This document shows, one piece after another, positions 8,649-36,090 of a stretch of DNA of 40,539 nucleotides. The notes under the pieces are model-generated. The model was not told where the DNA came from. It did not search any database and was given only the letters and a program-made list of their open reading frames with translations. Each line of letters starts with the position of its first letter. The first letter of the stretch is position 1. The DNA lies in NCBI RefSeq assembly GCF_024220515.1, contig NZ_JAMXOT010000073.1, positions 1-40,539 of the forward strand, written 5' to 3'. The DNA comes from Oscillatoria sp. HE19RPO. Lineage in GTDB: Bacteria; Cyanobacteriota; Cyanobacteriia; Cyanobacteriales; Laspinemataceae. Made by a program: the position numbers and the translations under genes.

Positions 8649-8726
8649 GGAAGGATGGGAGAGATGGGGAGATGGGGAGATGGGGGAGATGGGGAGGATG
8701 GGGAGGATGGGGAGGATGGGGGAGAT
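8649..8726 (+). repeat. GGGGAGATG purine-rich microsatellite
   Basis: About 78 bp of degenerate 8-9 bp units (GGGGAGATG, GGGGAGGATG), starting immediately after the TAG of the DUF481 gene. The same array type occurs at 18619-18662 and 27453-27496, and in the opposite orientation at 27703-27755 and about 36001-36064. All bases on this strand are purines or T, so short spurious frames cross it. Confidence 0.85.
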
Positions 8727-8794
8727 GTTCAACGTCCCGACTTCAGTCGTTCCCTCCCCCGTTCAACGTCCCGACTTCAGTCGTTCCCTCCCCC
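8727..8794 (+). repeat. 34-bp direct repeat x2 with CGACTTCAGTCG hairpin
   Basis: Two identical 34-bp units (8727-8760 and 8761-8794), each GTTCAACGTCC, then CGACTTCAGTCGTT, then CCCTCCCCC. They share the small hairpin core of the adjacent terminal inverted repeat but have a different left half, so they look like a degenerate tandem expansion of the element's end. Confidence 0.8.
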
Positions 8795-8949
8795 GTTTGT
8801 AGTAACGACTTCAGTCGTTTCCGCGTTACTTGGCATAAAGCCAAGTAACGCCCCTGTGGAGGCCAAGCATCCAGTCCCCATACAAGCGCAGAGTGCGTGA
8901 CTTGGCTGACGCCAAGTCACGAGTAACGACTGAAGTCGTTACTACAAAC
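8795..8949. mobile_element. MITE-like element, 155 bp, 25-bp perfect terminal inverted repeats
   Basis: The left end (8795-8819) and right end (8925-8949) are perfect 25-bp inverted copies with the core AACGACTTCAGTCGTT. Inside lie two hairpins: GCGTTACTTGGC / GCCAAGTAACGC at 8823-8851 (loop ATAAA) and CGTGACTTGGC / GCCAAGTCACG at 8896-8921 (loop TGAC). Between them is a core (CCCCTGTGGAGG...CCAGTCCCC) that recurs in reverse orientation in the element at 27535-27702. No transposase frame is inside. It could be a non-autonomous element or a structured RNA gene. Confidence 0.75.
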
Positions 8950-17715: not shown

Positions 17716-18618
17716 ATGAAACCGTTAAAAAATCGGACCATTCTAGGGGTAGGACTGGGCCTCTGGGCGATCGCCTCCACGGGATTCCACCCCCCCGCCA
17801 CCACCGCGCAATCCTCCTTACAACTGGCGCAGGCAACCGGCACCCTCTGTCGGCAAGTCACGGAACAACAGGGACTGGCAATCCGTTCTCAACCGAACCC
17901 CAACTCGGAGGCGATCGGAGGGGTCGGTTTTAATGAAACCCTAACTCTCTCTGCCGGTGCTCGCCAAATTCCCGGTCCCGATGGACGAGTTTGGTTTGAA
18001 ATCACAGCACCTGTCCGGGGATACGTCTCCAACGGCGAACCCGGAAGTTCCGGCAATTTTGTCCCCTGTACCGGCACCGCCCTCACCCCTGGCCCCTCTC
18101 CCAACCTCGGCACCTCCCTCTGCCGTCGGATTGACCCCAATTTGGCCCCCCAAGGCATCAGCATTCATGCCGATGCCAACCGATTTGCCACCAATCGCGG
18201 TGGATTAGCACCCGGAGCTCAAGTTTTACTCGCACCGAATGCTCAACTTCTGCCGGATCAAAATCGTGAACCCCGGACTTGGATTGAAATTTCATCCCCA
18301 ATCGTCGGATATATCCCCACGGAAAGCTTGGTCTACTGCAATGGATCCGTTTCTGCGAATCCCTTCAATCCAACTCCCGTAACCGCCAATCTCTGCCGTG
18401 AAGTAGAAGGTCGAGAGGCACCGAATGGATTGGTCATTCGCGCTGAACCCACCCGTTCTGCTGCCTCTTTAGGTGTGGTCCCCCCGAGAGCTCGGGTGAG
18501 TCTCATCCCCAATTATCAAATCCTCCGCGATCGCAACTCAGAAGCAAGAGAGTGGGTACAAATTACGAACCCGGTATCGGGGTTTGTGTCTACAGATAGT
18601 TTAATTATGTGTAAATAG
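17716..18618 (+). CDS. Secreted protein with three bacterial SH3-like domains
   Basis: A 300-aa exported protein. A signal peptide (ILGVGLGLWAIASTG, ending near TAQSSLQLAQA) precedes three SH3b-like modules at about 44-118, 136-212 and 225-299. Each module opens with LCR(Q/R/E)(V/I) and closes with a second cysteine (VPC, VYC, IMC), so each may be closed by a disulphide; the inner phrases (GL.IRS.P, W.EI..PV.GY(V/I)) repeat. SH3b domains usually bind cell-wall peptides. The ATG at 17716 is preferred over the GTG just before it because AGGA lies 5 nt upstream. The paralogue at 19051 follows. The stop codon abuts a purine-rich repeat array. Confidence 0.85.
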   Translation: MKPLKNRTILGVGLGLWAIASTGFHPPATTAQSSLQLAQATGTLCRQVTEQQGLAIRSQPNPNSEAIGGVGFNETLTLSAGARQIPGPDGRVWFEITAPVRGYVSNGEPGSSGNFVPCTGTALTPGPSPNLGTSLCRRIDPNLAPQGISIHADANRFATNRGGLAPGAQVLLAPNAQLLPDQNREPRTWIEISSPIVGYIPTESLVYCNGSVSANPFNPTPVTANLCREVEGREAPNGLVIRAEPTRSAASLGVVPPRARVSLIPNYQILRDRNSEAREWVQITNPVSGFVSTDSLIMCK

Positions 18619-18662
18619 GGGAGATGGGGAGGATGGGGGAGATGGGGGAGATGGGGGAGATG
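18619..18662 (+). repeat. GGGGAGATG purine-rich microsatellite
   Basis: An array of 8-9 bp units of the GGGGAGATG type that starts at the base after the TAG of the SH3 gene, as at 8649. It leads into the partial hairpin element. Confidence 0.85.
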
Positions 18663-18686
18663 GGAATCTGAGTCGGTTCTTCCCCT

Positions 18687-18825
18687 GTTTGTAGTAACGA
18701 CTTCAGTCGTTACCTCGTGACTTGGCTGAAGCCAAGTCACGAGGATGAGGGTGAGAAACGGCAGATCGGGGAAATGGAAACTGAAGTCGTTTATTCCCCC
18801 GTTTGTAGTAACGACTTCAGTCGTT
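18687..18825. mobile_element. Partial or rearranged copy of the MITE-like hairpin element
   Basis: Two direct copies of the 25-bp terminal repeat (18687-18711 and 18801-18825) flank one inner hairpin, CTCGTGACTTGGC / GCCAAGTCACGAG (18714-18743, 13-bp stem, loop TGAA). A broken inverted end, CTGAAGTCGTT, is at 18781-18791. The conserved central core and second hairpin of the full element are missing. The remaining ~200 bp before the next gene shows nothing I recognise beyond presumed promoter sequence. Confidence 0.7.
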
Positions 18826-23225: not shown

Positions 23226-23450
23226 ATTTGATTGTTCTTTGTCATTGGTCATTTGTCCTTGATCCTTTGTCCTTTGTTGTTTGTCAATGGTCATTTGTTG
23301 TTTGTCATTTGTCATTAAACGAAAGAACCAATGACAAAGGACAATTGTCAATTGTCAATTATCAATTATCAATTATCAATTATCAATTCCTGCCTCCCAA
23401 TGACCCATGACAAAGGACAGAAGACAAATGACCAATGACGCAAATTCCCT
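23226..23450. repeat. STRR cluster (CAATGAC/AAAGGAC and TTATCAA heptamers)
   Basis: Almost the whole gap between pmbA and the ClC gene is degenerate heptamers: TTTGTCATTGGTCA-type units on the left, their inverted form (CCAATGACAAAGGAC) from about 23323, then (TTATCAA)n at 23355-23387, then more CAATGAC units. The inverted arrangement could form a long imperfect hairpin. There is no coding sequence. Confidence 0.85.
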
Positions 23451-23477: not shown

Positions 23478-26180
23478 ATGTGGCTCCAGTCTCTTTCCTC
23501 GCATAGTTGGGTAGTGGCAAGGCTTAGAGCGTTTTTCCTGAGACCGAAACAGCTTGCTATGTTTGAAGCCTGTTTAATTGGTTTGGTCTCAGGACTGGCG
23601 GCGGTTTTCCTGAAACAAGGGGTGGGATGGTTAGGTGGATGGCGGATCTATGCGTCGTTTAATCTGCCTTCTTGGATTGGATTGCCGATGATTGGACTGA
23701 TGGGAGGGGCGATTGCCGGATTTCTCGTCGAACGCTTTGCCACGGAAGCATCCGGAAGTGGCATTCCCCAGGTGAAGGCGGCCCTGGCTGGATTTCCGTT
23801 ATCCCTCGATTTACGAGTCGCCTTCATTAAATTAATCACTACCGTGATCACAGTGGGATCCGGGTTGACCTTGGGGCGGCAGGGTCCAACGGTACAAATC
23901 GGCGCGGCGATCGCGGCTGAAATTGGCCGCTGGTTTCCCACCTCCCCAGATTACCGACGACAACTGATCGCGGCGGGTGCCGCCGCCGGTTTAGCTGCTG
24001 GATTTAATGCCCCCCTCGCGGGCGTTCTGTTTGCGGTTGAAGAACTCCTCCATGATATTTCCGCCTTCTCCCTAGGTCCAGCTATCCTCGCCTCCTTTAT
24101 TGGGGCCGTTGTCTCCCGCATCCTGGGGGGAAAAAGTCTGGATTTGAATTTAAGTGCAGGGGGCTTTCAATCCCAATTCACGGCCCCAGAAATCCCGTTC
24201 TACCTGATTTTAGGAATTCTCTCCGGTTTGCTGGGGACCCTCTTCACCCAAGGCATTCTCGCGAGTCTGAAATTCAACCGGAAGGTGCTGCAAATACCCC
24301 TGCCTTGGCGCATGGGACTGGCGGGATTGATTTGCGGCGTGGCGATCGCCCTGTTGCCCCCGTTATTTCGCAATAATAGCGGCTTGCGGGAGTTCCTGAT
24401 CACCGGAACTCCCACCGCTGGCGCTTCGGCGATCGCCTTCCTGACTCACTTTTGCCTGACCATCATTGCCGCTGGATCCGGCGCACCGGGAGGTTTATTC
24501 GCCCCTTCTCTGATTCTCGGGTCCGCCTTGGGATATCTAGTGGGCATTTGGGAATTTTCCATCCTCGATACCGGATTACCCACCACTTACGCCCTAGCAG
24601 GCATGGGGGCTTTTTTTTGTGCGGTCTCCAAAGCCCCCATTACCGCTGTTGTGATGATTTTTGAGATTACCACGGACTTTAATTTAGTCCTCCCCCTGAT
24701 GATTGTTTCCGTGGTGTCTTACCTCGTCGCGGAAATGGCTGAAAGCGGTTCCCTCTATGATAAGTTACTCAAACTTAAGGGCATTGACCTCCAAGAAGAC
24801 GCCACCCCGAATGCGATTCTAAGTGAGATTCGCGCGGCAGATGTCATGCAGCGCCGAGTGGAAACTTTAACCCCCGAAACCTCCATTGAGGAAGTCGTCC
24901 AGGCATTTTCCCGCTCTCATCATCGCGGATTTCCGGTCCTAGATGAGGGAAAATTAGTGGGCATGGTGGCCCAATCGGATTTGGCTAAAATCTCTAAGCT
25001 GAATTTACCCCCAGATACCATCCTGGAAAAGATTATGACTCCCCAGGCGGTGAAAGTTTCGCCTCGGGATACCCTGATGGAAGTGCTGTTTCAACTCAAC
25101 CGCTACAATCTGAGTCGCGTGCCCGTCACGGAAGGCCGAAAGCTGGTGGGGATTATTACGCGCACGGATATCATTCGCGCCGAAAGCGATCGCCTCACGG
25201 GAAAACAGGGATTTGGACCGCACCCAGAAGCCTCCTATCTGGTCTATCAGACGCGATCGCCCGCCACAGGTCAAGGTCGCTTACTCGTCCCCCTGGCTAA
25301 TCCGGAAACGGCCCCAGCATTGCTGCGCTTGGCCGTGGCGATCGCTCATCAGCGCAACTATGAACTGGAATGCCTACAAATCATTGTCATCTCCCGTCAC
25401 CAATCCCCCGATGAAACCCCGGTCAAAACCATTCCCTCTCGTCGGTTATTGCGTCTTGCCGAACGCATGGGTCGGGATTGGAATGTGCCCGTGCATACTC
25501 AAGTTCGGGTAGCCCATGATCTGGCCCAGGCTATGCTGGAAACCATTGATGAGCGACATATCGACCTGGTGTTAATGGGATGGAAAGGCAATACCGGCAC
25601 TCCCGGGCGGATTTTTGGGAATGTGGCGGATACCATGATTCGTCAAGCCCCTTGTGATGCGATTTTGGTGAAAATGGGCAAAACCTCCTTCCCCCCCTGG
25701 CGACGCAGGCGGGAAACCCAGCGTCACCGGAAGATTTCGGTCTCTCAGACCGGACTGGAGCGCCCCCTACCCCGTCCTCAGTCGTTTCAACGATGGCTGG
25801 TTCCCATTCGGGGTGGGCCGAGTGGTTTAGCTACGGTGAAATTACTGCCCGGATTGGTGTCGATGACTTCTAATCCTGAAATTCGCCTCTGTCAAGTGTT
25901 TGGGCCCGGAACTTATGGTGCCGATCAGGGGGTATTTGACCAGGCTCTGGCTTTTCTGGAACGGAAAGTCTCCTGTCCAGTGGTTTCAACGTCCCTCTGC
26001 GCTAACTCCGTTGAGGATGCGTTGATTGATTTGGCTCAAAAAGACCAATGTGATGTGATTGTCCTGGGTGCGAGTCGCGAAGGTTTACTGCACTCGGTGG
26101 TCAAGGGGAATATCCCCGAGGCGATCGCCCGTAATTGTGATTGTACGGTAATGCTGGTTCGCACCGGAACCGCTAGTTGA
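23478..26180 (+). CDS. ClC-type anion transporter/channel with CBS pair and two USP domains
   Basis: A 900-aa fusion. The ClC membrane domain covers about 30-430, with GSGIP (93-97) and GGLFAP (339-344) anion-site motifs. The usual GREGP motif is GRQGP (133-137): Q135 (codon CAG at 23880) replaces the external gating glutamate, and F401 replaces the conserved pore tyrosine; E188/E189 match the inner proton glutamate region. Two CBS domains (about 455-505 and 515-570) follow, then two universal-stress domains (about 600-733 and 772-897). The first USP has an ATP-type G-x2-G-x9-G-N motif (701-715); the second has arginine at the second glycine. In E. coli ClC, E148Q abolishes proton coupling, so a passive anion conductance is plausible here (inference). 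The stop codon lies inside a repeat array. Confidence 0.92.
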   Translation: MWLQSLSSHSWVVARLRAFFLRPKQLAMFEACLIGLVSGLAAVFLKQGVGWLGGWRIYASFNLPSWIGLPMIGLMGGAIAGFLVERFATEASGSGIPQVKAALAGFPLSLDLRVAFIKLITTVITVGSGLTLGRQGPTVQIGAAIAAEIGRWFPTSPDYRRQLIAAGAAAGLAAGFNAPLAGVLFAVEELLHDISAFSLGPAILASFIGAVVSRILGGKSLDLNLSAGGFQSQFTAPEIPFYLILGILSGLLGTLFTQGILASLKFNRKVLQIPLPWRMGLAGLICGVAIALLPPLFRNNSGLREFLITGTPTAGASAIAFLTHFCLTIIAAGSGAPGGLFAPSLILGSALGYLVGIWEFSILDTGLPTTYALAGMGAFFCAVSKAPITAVVMIFEITTDFNLVLPLMIVSVVSYLVAEMAESGSLYDKLLKLKGIDLQEDATPNAILSEIRAADVMQRRVETLTPETSIEEVVQAFSRSHHRGFPVLDEGKLVGMVAQSDLAKISKLNLPPDTILEKIMTPQAVKVSPRDTLMEVLFQLNRYNLSRVPVTEGRKLVGIITRTDIIRAESDRLTGKQGFGPHPEASYLVYQTRSPATGQGRLLVPLANPETAPALLRLAVAIAHQRNYELECLQIIVISRHQSPDETPVKTIPSRRLLRLAERMGRDWNVPVHTQVRVAHDLAQAMLETIDERHIDLVLMGWKGNTGTPGRIFGNVADTMIRQAPCDAILVKMGKTSFPPWRRRRETQRHRKISVSQTGLERPLPRPQSFQRWLVPIRGGPSGLATVKLLPGLVSMTSNPEIRLCQVFGPGTYGADQGVFDQALAFLERKVSCPVVSTSLCANSVEDALIDLAQKDQCDVIVLGASREGLLHSVVKGNIPEAIARNCDCTVMLVRTGTAS

Positions 26181-26239
26181 TAATTGATAATTGATAATTG
26201 ATAGTTGATAATTATCAATTATCAATTATCAATTATCAA
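26177..26239. repeat. 63-bp inverted STRR (TTGATAA)n / (TTATCAA)n
   Basis: Four TTGATAA-type heptamers on the left are mirrored by four TTATCAA heptamers on the right, giving a long, nearly perfect hairpin. It includes the TGA stop codon of the ClC gene and ends two bases before the stop codon of the convergent CobO-like gene, so it fills the entire gap. It could end both transcripts. Confidence 0.85.
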
Positions 26240-26241
26240 AT

Positions 26242-27372: not shown

Positions 27373-27802
27373 AGCTCCTTTGTATTTTATGAATGCCTTC
27401 TCCTCTTATTATCAGAGTTCTCGTCCCCTTTTCCCTAATTCACAGCAGATTGGAGGATGGGGGAGATGGGGAGGATGGGGGAGATGGGGAGGATGGTCCA
27501 AGTTTGTAGTAACGACTTCAGTCGTTTCCGGATCGTTTGTAGTAACGACTTCAGTCGTTGCTATCGTGTCATGGCATACGCCATGACACTCACACTGAGC
27601 GGCTTAAGCGCCTGTTTGGGGACTGGGTGCGATCGCCTCCAATGGGGCGTTACTTGGCGGATGCCAAGTAACGCGGTAACGACTGAAGTCGTTACTACAA
27701 ACATCTCCCCCATCTCCCCAATCTCCCCAATCTCCCCCATCTCCCCCACTCAACCCCCTCCCAGTCAGGTAGAATAGGCAAGATTAGGAGTCAATAGCCA
27801 CT
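27373..27802. other. Divergent intergenic region filled by a hairpin element
   Basis: The 430-bp region between the divergent CobO-like and fraC genes is mostly repeat: a purine array (27453-27496), an extra terminal repeat (27502-27526), the full MITE-like element (27535-27702) and an inverted pyrimidine array (27703-27755). Only about 80 bp on the CobO side and 45 bp on the fraC side are left for ordinary promoter sequence. Confidence 0.7.
27535..27702. mobile_element. MITE-like element, 168 bp, 25-bp perfect terminal inverted repeats
   Basis: The ends at 27535-27559 and 27678-27702 are perfect 25-bp inverted copies, identical to those at 8795-8949. The inner hairpins are GTGTCATGGC / GCCATGACAC (27566-27589, loop ATAC) and GCGTTACTTGGC / GCCAAGTAACGC (27647-27674, loop GGAT). 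The core GGGGACTGGGTGC...GCCTCCA..GGGG matches the reverse complement of the 8795-8949 core, so the two elements lie in opposite orientations. The first stem differs from its counterpart by two compensated base pairs. An extra direct copy of the end lies at 27502-27526, and purine/pyrimidine arrays flank the whole in inverted orientation. Confidence 0.78.
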
Positions 27803-33460: not shown

Positions 33461-34107
33461 AAAAAGCCCGCAGGCTTAAGCCTGGGGCTATACGGACAAA
33501 GCCCGCCTGCGCGGGCTCCTCTCTAAACATGACTTGAGACAACCCGATTTGGAAGAAGTCCACAGAAAAAGCCCGCAGGCTCAAGCCTGGGGCTATACGA
33601 ACAAAGCCCGCCTGCGCGGGCTCCTCTATAAAAATGACTTTTCATACCCAATCCGGGTGGTAAAGGTCGGTTTTCTCTTCAGCCTGCGTAGGCACCGCTT
33701 CGTCTGTGTAGCCCCAGGCTTAAGCCTGCGGGTTTTTATAGACTTTTGAAAACCGAATTGGATACCCTACCCAGATTGGGAATAAGAAAAAGCCCGCAGG
33801 CTCAAGCCTGGGGCTATACGAACAAAGCCCGCCTGCGCGGGCTCCTCTATAAAAATGACTTTTCATACCCCATCCGGGTGGTAAAGGTCGGTTTTCTCTT
33901 CAGCCTGCGTAGGCACCGCTTCGTCCGTGTAGCCCCAGGCTTAAGCCTGCGGGTTTTTATAGACCAGATTATGCCTCGACTTCAGCCTGCGTAGGCACCG
34001 CTTCGTCCGTGTAGCCCCAGGCTTGAGCCTGCGGGCTTTTATTTCAGCCTGCGTAGGCACCGCTTCGTCCGTGTAGCCCCAGGCTTAAGCCTGCGGGTTT
34101 TTATAGA
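33461..34107. repeat. Cluster of seven ~62-bp two-hairpin elements
   Basis: Copies on the minus strand lie at 33461-33522, 33566-33627 and 33787-33848; copies on the plus strand at 33678-33742, 33899-33963, 33981-34043 and 34043-34107. Each plus-strand copy reads TTCAGCCTGCGTAGGC, CACCGCTTCGTC, GTGTAGCCC, CAGGCTTAAGCCTG and a T-rich end; the two palindromic parts form consecutive hairpins. Opposite-facing copies form pairs (33566/33678 and 33787/33899), and these pairs are themselves a 221-bp tandem duplication with only about two differences in 177 bp. The cluster ends next to the hcp stop codon. Frames across it (SPQAQAWGYTNKARLRGLL) are repeat translations, not proteins. Confidence 0.85.
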
Positions 34108-34112
34108 CCTTA

Positions 34113-35765
34113 TTATGCCTCGACAGTCGTCCCTAAACAGGCGGCTAAATCTTCCTCGGGAGTGCCGATCGCCTTGAGATTATAAGTCTGGGAAAGCAAC
34201 TCAAACACATTCGGAGAAATAAATGCAGGCAGGGTTGGCCCTAAGCGAATATTTTTAATTCCCAAATGGAACAGCGTCAGCAAAATCGAGACTGCTTTTT
34301 GTTCATACCATGACAAAATCATCGACAATGGCAGTTCATTTACTCCCACCCCAAAGGCATTGGCTAAAGCTAGGGTAATTTGCACGGCTGAATAAGCATC
34401 ATTACATTGACCCACATCCATCAAGCGCGGAATTCCACCAATGTCTCCGAGTTCCTTATCAAAGAACCGGAATTTGCCACAAGCTAGGGTGAGCACAACG
34501 CAGTCTTCAGGGACTTTTTCCACGAATTCGGTGTAATAGTTGCGGCTGGGTTTGGCCCCATCGCAACCGCCGACGAGGAAGAAGTGGCGAATATCTCCCC
34601 GTTTGACGGCGGCGATTACTTCATCGGCAACACCCAAGACGGCATTCCGGGCAAATCCGGTGGTGACTTGGCGGGGGTCGGTGTTATCGGTAAATCCTGG
34701 CATGGATAAGCTACAGGCGATCGCATCGCTAAAGTCGCGGTTTTCAATATGGGCCAATCCGGGCCAACCTACAGGGCCACAGGTGAACACTCTATTAATA
34801 TAGGTGTTGTGGGGTGGCATCAGGCAGTTGGTGGTCATGACGATCGCCCCTGGGAATTTCGCAAATTCGCGGGTTTGATTTTGCCATGCGGTCCCATAAT
34901 GACCATACAGATGGGGATATTTCTGCTTGAGTCCCGGATACCCATGCGCGGGCAGCATTTCCCCGTGGGTATAAACAGAGATTCCCTGATTCGCGGTTTG
35001 TTTAAGCAGTTCCTCTAGGTCCTTGAGATCATGACCCGAGACGAGAATCGCTTTACCCGGTTGGGTTCCCAGGGGAACACGGGTGGGGACAGGATGACCA
35101 TAGTTGCCCGTATTTCCGGCATCGAGGAGTTCCATCGCCAAGAGGTTGATTTCCCCGACTTTTAAGGCCATTTGTACCCAGTCTTCTAGGGTCAAATCCA
35201 CGGCGTCAAGTCCAGCTAAGGCTTCATGACAGAAAGCATAGAGGCGATCGTCTTCCTGTCCCAGTTCTTGGGCATGGTAGGCATAGGCGGCGATGCCTTT
35301 GAGTCCATAAATAATGGTCAGTTTGAGGGAGAAAATATCAACATCTTGGGCGGATTTGGAGATAAATCCATATTCTACATCTCGACCTTGTTGGACTAAT
35401 TGATCGAGGGTGGGGGCGGGTTCCAAGGTGGCGGGACCTTCGGGAAAACGGACCTCGGGGGCGACAGCTTGCAGTTGCGCTTTCAATCCATCCCGCAGGG
35501 CGATCGCCTGATGGATATAGTGAACAAAACTTTCGGGGTCGAAGTTGACGTTGGTGAGGGTGGAAAAGAGGGTTTCGCAGGTGAAGCGATCGGCTTGGCG
35601 GTTAATAATTCCTTGTTTCCGGGCGGCGATCGCCACTTGTCCAAGTCCGCGCAATAAATGGGTTAATAAATCTTGCAGGGCATCCACTTCGGGACTTTTA
35701 CCACAGGCACCCCATTGATAACAGGCTTCTCCACCGGCAGTTTGTTCGCATTGGCTGCAATACAT
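34113..35765 (-). CDS. hcp: Hydroxylamine reductase / hybrid-cluster protein (prismane)
   Basis: A 550-aa hybrid-cluster protein, associated in other bacteria with nitric-oxide and hydroxylamine reduction under nitrosative stress. N-terminal cysteines C3, C6, C15 and C21 have CX2C-X8-C-X5-C spacing, the type that binds a [4Fe-4S] cluster. Hybrid-cluster ligands are recognisable in order: the glutamate in THGEMLPAHGYP, then cysteines in TNCLMPP, VGGCDGAKP, LACGKFRF and VGQCNDAYS, then the glutamate in WYEQKAVS. The ATG at 35765 has a GAGAGGT ribosome-binding site. A perfect Crp/Fnr-type operator lies upstream, and a Crp/Fnr gene is divergent across the 434-bp gap. No hcr reductase gene is adjacent. 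Confidence 0.95.
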   Translation of the reverse strand: MYCSQCEQTAGGEACYQWGACGKSPEVDALQDLLTHLLRGLGQVAIAARKQGIINRQADRFTCETLFSTLTNVNFDPESFVHYIHQAIALRDGLKAQLQAVAPEVRFPEGPATLEPAPTLDQLVQQGRDVEYGFISKSAQDVDIFSLKLTIIYGLKGIAAYAYHAQELGQEDDRLYAFCHEALAGLDAVDLTLEDWVQMALKVGEINLLAMELLDAGNTGNYGHPVPTRVPLGTQPGKAILVSGHDLKDLEELLKQTANQGISVYTHGEMLPAHGYPGLKQKYPHLYGHYGTAWQNQTREFAKFPGAIVMTTNCLMPPHNTYINRVFTCGPVGWPGLAHIENRDFSDAIACSLSMPGFTDNTDPRQVTTGFARNAVLGVADEVIAAVKRGDIRHFFLVGGCDGAKPSRNYYTEFVEKVPEDCVVLTLACGKFRFFDKELGDIGGIPRLMDVGQCNDAYSAVQITLALANAFGVGVNELPLSMILSWYEQKAVSILLTLFHLGIKNIRLGPTLPAFISPNVFELLSQTYNLKAIGTPEEDLAACLGTTVEA

Positions 35766-35939: not shown

Positions 35940-36000
35940 CCTACAGGGATAGAGATCAGGGCTCATATCAAGTTTGCTAGATTAACGTGAAAAACTATTT

Positions 36001-36090
36001 TCCCCTCTCCCCCATTTCCCCCTCTTCTCCCCCATCTCCCCCATCTCCCCCATCTCCCTCTTCTCCCCCTTCCCTTGAAGGGAAGGGGGT
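36001..36090. repeat. Pyrimidine-rich microsatellite and CCCCCTTCCCTT hairpin
   Basis: Units of CTCCCCCAT type (the inverse of the GGGGAGATG arrays) run to about 36064. A perfect 12-bp inverted repeat follows at 36065-36089 (CCCCCTTCCCTT / AAGGGAAGGGGG, one-base loop), then G-rich sequence to about 36104. All of it lies in the leader side of the Crp-family gene. An 8-bp inverted repeat CTGGATCA / TGATCCAG (36135-36142 and 36176-36183) sits just before the TTG start. Confidence 0.7.

Follow-up and report, generated by a model that had tools for sequence, protein, structure and literature searches.

Compensatory base change is a standard computational sign of structured RNA. The passages of the literature that deal with small palindromic repeats of bacteria read such changes in more than one way. 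For the stems of REPs, selection for complementary mutations has been suggested (Nunvar et al. 2010, PMC2817692), and compensatory changes in the spacers of REPINs have been read as a need to form the hairpin (Bertels and Rainey 2011, PMC3116915). GTAG-tagged REP families are known from cyanobacteria, and the spacers of the CGTC-3 dimers of A. tumefaciens carry two stem-loops at their ends (Di Nocera 2013, PMC3733652). Template switching has been proposed in PNAS to give rise, in RNA genes, to loop inversions as well as compensatory changes (PMC8794818); between inverted repeats it is described as giving two products, arm homogenization and spacer inversion (PMC8604942). Four-base loops are enriched among the instantaneous compensatory changes reported in these two papers, and bacterial template switching is reported to favor transversions (PMC8604942). 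A compensatory change together with a loop inversion is very rare in rRNA (six cases, not enriched), which the authors attribute to conserved loops (PMC8794818).

The stretch of DNA analyzed here (the window, 40,539 nucleotides) is contig 7 of a 7.67-Mb genome in 511 contigs (G000). It carries two copies of a small, non-coding and probably mobile DNA repeat of a cyanobacterium, in which hairpins are nested within hairpins. A reading of the sequence alone (the sequence-only reading) had described two elements whose 25-bp terminal inverted repeats are identical, whose cores match in opposite orientation and which each contain two inner hairpins, and this architecture was confirmed in all three respects: BLAST aligns copy 2 with copy 1 across all 155 nt at 79% identity, on the minus strand. 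Both copies are intergenic: the neighbors of copy 1 are genes for a DUF481 protein and an FAD oxidoreductase, those of copy 2 a btuR-like gene and fraC. Copy 1, folded as single-stranded DNA, reaches -56.3 kcal/mol (z -13.8), and none of 200 dinucleotide shuffles folded equally well. The elements and their relatives in the window are the following.

8795-8949: copy 1, whole element (155 nt)
8795-8819, plus strand: left REP of copy 1, GTAG-tagged, GTTTGTAG-TAACGACT-TC-AGTCGTT
8823-8851, plus strand: inner hairpin A of copy 1, GCGTTACTTGGC (ATAAA) GCCAAGTAACGC
8852-8895, plus strand: core of copy 1, the decayed module hairpins H2/H3
8896-8921, plus strand: inner hairpin A' of copy 1, CGTGACTTGGC (TGAC) GCCAAGTCACG
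8925-8949, minus strand: right REP of copy 1
27535-27702: copy 2, whole element
27535-27559, plus strand: left REP of copy 2
27566-27589, plus strand: inner hairpin B of copy 2, GTGTCATGGC (ATAC) GCCATGACAC
27590-27646, minus strand: core of copy 2, CCAGTCCCCAAACAGG... as read on that strand
27647-27674, minus strand: inner hairpin A of copy 2, homologue of 8823-8851 with an identical stem and the loop GGAT on the plus strand
27678-27702, minus strand: right REP of copy 2
27502-27526, plus strand: solo GTAG REP adjoining copy 2
18687-18741, plus strand: half element, a REP with a single inner hairpin, CGTGACTTGGC TGAA GCCAAGTCACG
18801-18825, plus strand: solo GTAG REP
8727-8751, plus strand: REP variant with AACGTC replacing GTAGTA (CGTC-tagged)
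8761-8785, plus strand: second CGTC-tagged REP variant

The compensated stem differences that had been seen between the two window copies did not survive comparison with related genomes. Copy 1 apparently lost hairpin B, so that its hairpin A' (CGTGACTTGGC/GCCAAGTCACG, 8896-8921) had been set against hairpin B of copy 2 (GTGTCATGGC/GCCATGACAC, 27566-27589), with which it is not homologous. The true counterparts, 8823-8851 and 27647-27674, are hairpins with one and the same stem that differ in the loop alone (ATAAA; GGAT, plus strand). Three inner hairpins (A, B and A') are present at the site of copy 1 in two related genomes, G006 and G004, and the loss of B from copy 1 would most simply be explained by a deletion between two CCAGT-type repeats.

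The REP elements of the window are flanked by tandem 9-base repeats of the GGGGGAGATG type (8650-8727, 18615-18665, 27450-27495 and 27704-27750). Arrays to the left are rich in G and the one to the right of copy 2 is rich in C, which places that element within a larger imperfect palindrome; judged by eye, G-rich and C-rich flanking arrays recur at many of the other element sites read. A further 9-base array at 35999-36078 has no adjoining REP. The window also holds a separate repeat family, GCCCGCAGGCTTAAGCCTGGGGCTATAC..., in direct and inverted copies (33461-34124 and 1598-1702), as well as arrays of 7-base units (TGTCATT and TGATAAT types; 23240-23400 and 26171-26240) on either side of the ORF at 23478-26180. 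Many GCGATCGC sites are present in the window, which we take to be a cyanobacterial signature.

Each 25-bp end of the element is a hairpin in itself, with a 7-bp stem and a GTAG tag at its foot (GTAG-T-AACGACT-TC-AGTCGTT). Exact matches to an 18-base core of this end number 1,116 genome-wide (577 forward and 539 reverse), and the reversed control gave none. The ends thus combine a GTAG at one foot of a hairpin with high copy number, as GTAG-tagged REPs do, and the whole element consists of two inverted REPs and a spacer that can fold as one hairpin, which is the build of a REPIN. The sequence-only reading could name no described family; head-to-head dimers of GTAG-tagged REPs, or REPINs, fit. 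The pattern of end, spacer and end occurs at 61 places in the genome, some of which are chance pairs of neighboring REPs. The genome contains 87 copies of the CGTC-tagged variant (AACGTC for GTAGTA, same hairpin), and mixed dimers, with GTAG at one end and CGTC at the other, were found (C296 and C57). Whole or half elements are amplified in tandem on contigs 296, 241, 448, 19 and 337 of G000, with four copies spaced 183 bases apart on contig 296 and three spaced 101 apart on contig 448. A literature text search for the 18-base core found no paper, and a whole-word search for repeat-related terms in the Laspinema population-genomics paper (PMC9500459) was empty, a search that plurals and longer words would escape.

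The suggestion to look for a Y1/RAYT transposase with matching ends proved fruitful. A search of the genome for transposases of the Y1 family returned six matches, one of which, on contig 104, is a REP-associated tyrosine transposase (NCBIfam NF047646, 94.9 bits against a cut-off of 80). The HuH motif of its protein reads HYH, the N-terminus is proline-rich, and the gene lies between outward-facing arrays of the REP hairpin of the element. One array consists of six GTAG REPs, the opposite one of six REPs that share the hairpin and bear the AACGTC tag (L034:881-1293). It is the one match among the six with the arrangement that marks a REPtron or RAYT gene, namely inverted copies of the same REP on both flanks; none of these REPs was found in the flanks of the other five. 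The orthologues in G008 and G004 adjoin the same REP as well, with GTAG REPs on both sides and one outer CGTC copy in G008 and with GTAG REPs on the one side read in G004. Of 80 RAYT loci kept, 49 were scanned, and in 39 of these GTAG hairpins lie within 500 bp of the gene; the density of such hairpins is 180 in 47.6 kb near the genes versus 20 in 82 kb farther away. Their stems vary between species, and the plan GTAGT-R-stem-CTT(C/T)AG-stem is often common to them. The CGTC tag was considered as a general marker of the 3' side of RAYT genes and dropped: it holds in G000 and is contradicted by G008, and a CGTC hairpin lies near only two of the 49 loci, one being the same Laspinema locus as in G008 and the other unlike this REP. 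A distant RAYT (32% identity) in G009, a genome of another genus, is flanked by tandem and inverted GGTAGGGTGTGTT(A/G)CGGC repeats (L080:1984-3411), which also bear GTAG and belong to a different family.

Across the genus, with presence of the transposase called at E up to 1e-10, the REP is abundant in three genomes that have it and sparse in four that do not, and one further genome is rich in REPs without a match. RAYT-bearing genomes contain 1,116 (G000), 851 (G008) and 581 (G004) REP cores, versus 121 (G002), 37 (G003), 125 (G005) and 40 (G007) in genomes of the same genus that lack it. G006 has 911 cores and no RAYT match in an assembly that is 87% complete and fragmented. No REP core was found in six genomes of other genera. 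The orientation of the REP loop differs in the same way: flipped loops (TTCA to TGAA, with GTAG kept) make up 1.5% in the three RAYT genomes (13, 13 and 13 copies) versus 10.5% in the four without RAYT (10, 5, 21 and 2 copies; Fisher p 6e-16), and G006 has 14 against its 911 cores. It should be noted that these percentages are approximate: the two search patterns are of unequal length, and the core pattern also picks up a flipped REP with AC after it. Selection on the REP ends is supported by this contrast and by their near-invariance.

The covariation claimed for the inner hairpins, checked over many copies, is present. In 29 copies (a subset of 39 parsed, chosen by spacer length, plus copy 1), 12 of 20 pairs have changes on both sides, and the covariation score is 0.300 versus 0.092 when shuffled. 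Paired cells reach 96.6% versus 85.2%, cells with changes on both sides number 55 versus 15.4, and slid structures score 0.021-0.100. None of 500 shuffles was as high by any measure, which is not a strict p-value, as the copies share descent; the comparison of orthologous sites below is the stronger evidence. Copies of the spacer that lack REPs also have changes on both sides, at 11 of 31 predicted pairs (19 sequences from three genomes).

Variable stems kept as RNA from one strand would be expected to prefer G-U to A-C mismatches, and no such preference was seen: across 264 half elements, G.T mismatches number 23 and A.C mismatches 19 (p 0.64), or 18 and 17 when distinct stems are counted. 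An earlier, apparent wobble preference (15 G.T to 4 A.C among unique hairpins, 11 to 4 among single-sided changes) arose from a hairpin finder that scored G.T kinder. Equal mismatch scoring gave 34 G.T to 20 A.C in 276 half elements (p 0.076) and 20 to 18 among distinct stems, before the removal of 12 rows that were false hairpins between neighboring tandem REPs; the counts after removal were adopted. The counts of paired changes and of loops given below still rest on the finder that is kinder to G.T than to A.C.

To follow change in place, 39 anchors (one beside a chance REP pair) were located in G008, G004, G006 and G002, and most of the sites were fetched; the copy 1 site was read in G005 as well as in G008. 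At the copy 1 site, both arms of hairpins A and A' are changed in G004, from TTGGC/GCCAA to GAAAGC/GCTTTC, and the TGAC loop of A' is kept. For the stems as a whole, we compared 162 genome pairs in 53 site/half groups with at least two genomes (4-base loops, 10 positions, closest copies). At 26 stem positions both arms had changed, and 24 of these are still Watson-Crick pairs, 20 of transversion type and 4 of transition type; two are not paired. Before cleaning, with shifted loops and all copies included, the counts were 42 of transversion type, 10 of transition type and 6 not paired, and GGC/AGC tip changes in 6 site/half groups were excluded from both counts for their one-base shift. A double change of transversion type passes through no G-U pair along a two-step path. 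The excess of transversions in double over single changes gives p 0.088 in a weak test, and changes on one arm (37) outnumber the 24 paired double changes, as stepwise change would also give. In 6 site/half groups, a site has had its hairpin tip swapped in both arms, in one of them with the loop kept. The paired changes recur among few stem variants (T-A/G-C at position 8 and C-G/G-C at position 10), whose spread could also be the work of conversion by other copies.

The loops carry a second signature. The sequence-only reading had them vary freely, which is correct in part: at a given site, replacement of a loop by its reverse complement is about as frequent as retention of the same non-palindromic loop (21 versus 17). 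These 21 reverse-complemented loops come from 136 genome pairs and fall into 13 site/half groups (permutation mean 4.4, maximum 12; 0 of 2,000 permutations as high), and as genome pairs at one site share branches they are not independent events. The other comparisons comprise 12 identical palindromes and 86 pairs of other kinds besides the 17 identical loops. Of 196 genome pairs, 41 had been dropped for more than one loop per genome at the site; among the 155 left, 19 had loops that were not 4 bases long and were excluded. Since the neighboring REP sets the frame in which each loop was read, a flip of the element as a whole cannot produce this result. Spacer inversion at palindromes, a mark of template switching, was thus found on the scale of single hairpins. 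Whole interiors are also inverted. This was seen in 10 of 50 comparisons, 7 of them in G004 and 3 in G008, spread over 9 of 27 sites. At one site (C131), the inverted block takes in a neighboring CGTC REP and ends within the flanking G-rich and C-rich arrays.

The spacer proved to have an existence apart from the REPs. A covariance model built from 25 spacers (E up to 0.001; 150 candidates scored per genome; a palindromic place may count on both strands) gave 118 matches in G000, 106 in G008, 85 in G006, 80 in G004, 71 in G002, 47 in G003, 46 in G005 and 28 in G007, all of the genus. Outside it, there were 7 matches in G012 and none in the other five genomes of other genera. Without REPs, the module consists of four hairpins, H1 to H4, in which H4 mirrors H1 and H3 mirrors H2. 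No REP was present at either end of 22 of the 29 module places read in G003 (11 of 12), G007 (5 of 11) and G012 (6 of 6), and bare modules also make up 5 of 9 places in G002 and 3 of 5 in G005. Of 58 module places in G000, REPs flank 41 on both sides and 57 on at least one, in stretches most of which were fetched because they bore the element. Twenty further places picked by the module search (in G000, G008, G004 and G006) had REPs on both sides in 16 cases and on one side in 4, and in 3 of these 4 the second REP had been clipped by the cut of the script and is visible in the sequence. These capping counts are drawn from differently chosen samples. Single sites show both states: at C1, the module is bare in G002 and REP-capped in G000, G004 and G008, and at C248:6940 it is bare in G002 and capped in G000, G004, G008 and G006.

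Several observations touch on the range of the module. A relative was found in a Spirulina MAG, one of 90 sources searched, and the REP-less module had no match in the plasmid collection. In G002, a larger element with the ends TTACAAGAGTAGG...CCTACTCTTGTAA, or near variants of these, contains pieces like the module interior (L198, L291, L296, L287 and L298). At what is apparently the same site in G003 and G007 (L317 and L318), the H4 loop of a bare module reads TCT in one genome and AGA in its counterpart, a loop flip where no REP is present.

On balance, we consider it probable that this is a REPIN-like mobile element that caps an older module and is spread by the RAYT, with stem covariation that stems mainly from fold-back of DNA and with selection acting on the REP ends. 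In this account, the element would be non-autonomous, with two GTAG-tagged REPs head to head on a four-hairpin palindromic module. The RAYT, a Y1 HUH enzyme encoded elsewhere in the genome, would most likely recognize the GTAG-hairpin ends in single-stranded DNA and so spread the element; its association with the REP is observed, and movement is suggested by it. In the single-stranded state, the palindromes would fold back and a polymerase would copy one arm from the other, homogenizing the arms and making a paired change in one step. Copying through the loop would replace it by its reverse complement, and the whole interior would be flipped when REPs, or the inverted arrays on the flanks, recombine with each other or serve as points of switching. 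Where a RAYT is present, selection would maintain the REP ends, including the orientation of their loop. We infer the replication step and the enzyme, as well as the greater age of the bare module, for which its occurrence in another genus argues. The data favor a mutational origin for a large part of the stem covariation: flipped loops, inverted interiors, double changes of transversion type and the lack of a G.T preference fit fold-back template switching in DNA, and selection for RNA or structure may contribute to the inner stems but is not needed to account for them. Since fold-back copying would change both arms together, matched stem changes alone are no proof of functional RNA.

The sequence-only reading had proposed selection on folded RNA or single-stranded DNA. 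Its premise stands, as covariation exceeds the shuffles and folding is involved; selection on RNA is not needed, and DNA fold-back fits. If the hairpins were kept as folded RNA, either as a small RNA or as a structured end by which an mRNA is protected or cleaved, the high pairing, the strong covariation and the intergenic position of the window copies would be explained, and H1 of the REP-less modules does keep G-U pairs at two positions (11 of 19 and 10 of 19 sequences). However, H4 has the mirror C.A mismatch on the same strand in 11 of 19 (by eye), so no single transcript is favored. The even mismatch counts, the exchange of loops for their reverse complements and the inversion of interiors relative to the genes also speak against it; no Rfam family reached its gathering score in the window, and the REP-less modules matched solely eukaryotic miRNA and UTR models, below their cut-offs. 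We therefore hold this explanation to be quite improbable. Selection on single-stranded DNA hairpins that a RAYT or host protein binds in folded form, with paired changes as filtered stepwise mutations, would account for the near-invariant REP ends, with GTAG tag and loop orientation kept where a RAYT is present, and RAYT enzymes are described as acting on single strands (PMC6006769). We hold it to be unlikely but respectable: the inner stems vary widely, REP-less modules exist, reverse-complemented loops are not predicted, and the double changes are mostly of a type without an intermediate wobble step.

Slightly less likely still is that in-place covariation is an illusion, produced by gene conversion or fresh insertion that swaps whole, already paired copies. 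The few stem variants that recur across many sites, the near-identical tandem and dispersed copies, and the 86 of 136 loop comparisons that are neither identical nor reverse-complementary all agree with such exchange. Yet reverse-complemented loops exceed a permutation that preserves loop frequencies, and at the copy 1 site both arms of A' differ between species, with the TGAC loop and the neighboring spacer unchanged. That the element is an ordinary MITE of a DDE transposase is barely credible: 25-bp terminal inverted repeats without coding capacity would suit one, but each terminal repeat is a GTAG-tagged hairpin and a Y1 RAYT gene, from a transposase search that covered the Y1 family, has the same ends. 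The one short empty site read for a target duplication (C127 in G004) lies in tandem repeats.

Beyond the preferred account of a RAYT-spread element with DNA fold-back, a fuller history can be proposed, to which we give a little less than an even chance: a REPIN formed by capture, in which REPs driven by the RAYT settled precisely on both ends of an older module in one branch of the genus and made a chimeric mobile element of it, and the nested palindromes flip and correct themselves by fold-back copying, so that compensatory change is largely mutational. It is conceivable, though we lean slightly against it, that this operates at nested scales, from 4-base loops through 12-bp hairpins and the whole interior to the block between flanking inverted arrays. 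If the capture history is true, compensatory change, a textbook mark of functional RNA, would here be generated largely by mutation. With about 100 copies per genome in several related species, and with sites that pair stem changes with loop and interior inversions and so point to DNA fold-back, the repeat offers a natural test bed for covariation from mutation alone, for how frequently templates are switched in bacteria and for the acquisition of spacers by REPINs.

Compared with the known systems, the element shares with the REPINs described in PMC3116915 the inverted REP pair, the folding spacer, the tie to a RAYT, the compensatory spacer changes and the tandem clusters. It differs from them in having 105-118 nt between its 25-nt ends (window copies) and in the nature of this spacer, a four-hairpin module in its own right that occurs by itself in other places. 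With the GTAG REP families and head-to-head dimers of PMC3733652 it has in common the GTAG beside a short hairpin, the two-base TY loop, the dimers and the clusters, a likeness in described features. Here, the same hairpin is also CGTC-tagged and such copies flank the RAYT, whereas that paper, in its treatment of CGTC repeats, found no transposase beside them. The RAYT resembles TnpA-REP subclass 2.8 as outlined in PMC6006769 (HYH in the HuH motif, a proline-rich N-terminus, cyanobacterial hosts and GT[AG]G hairpin flanks), a tentative assignment made by motifs read from the sequence. Finally, arm homogenization, paired changes and spacer inversion are shared with template switching at inverted repeats (PMC8794818 and PMC8604942); the cases presented there are RNA genes and yeast protein genes, whereas ours is a dispersed bacterial repeat with several nested scales.
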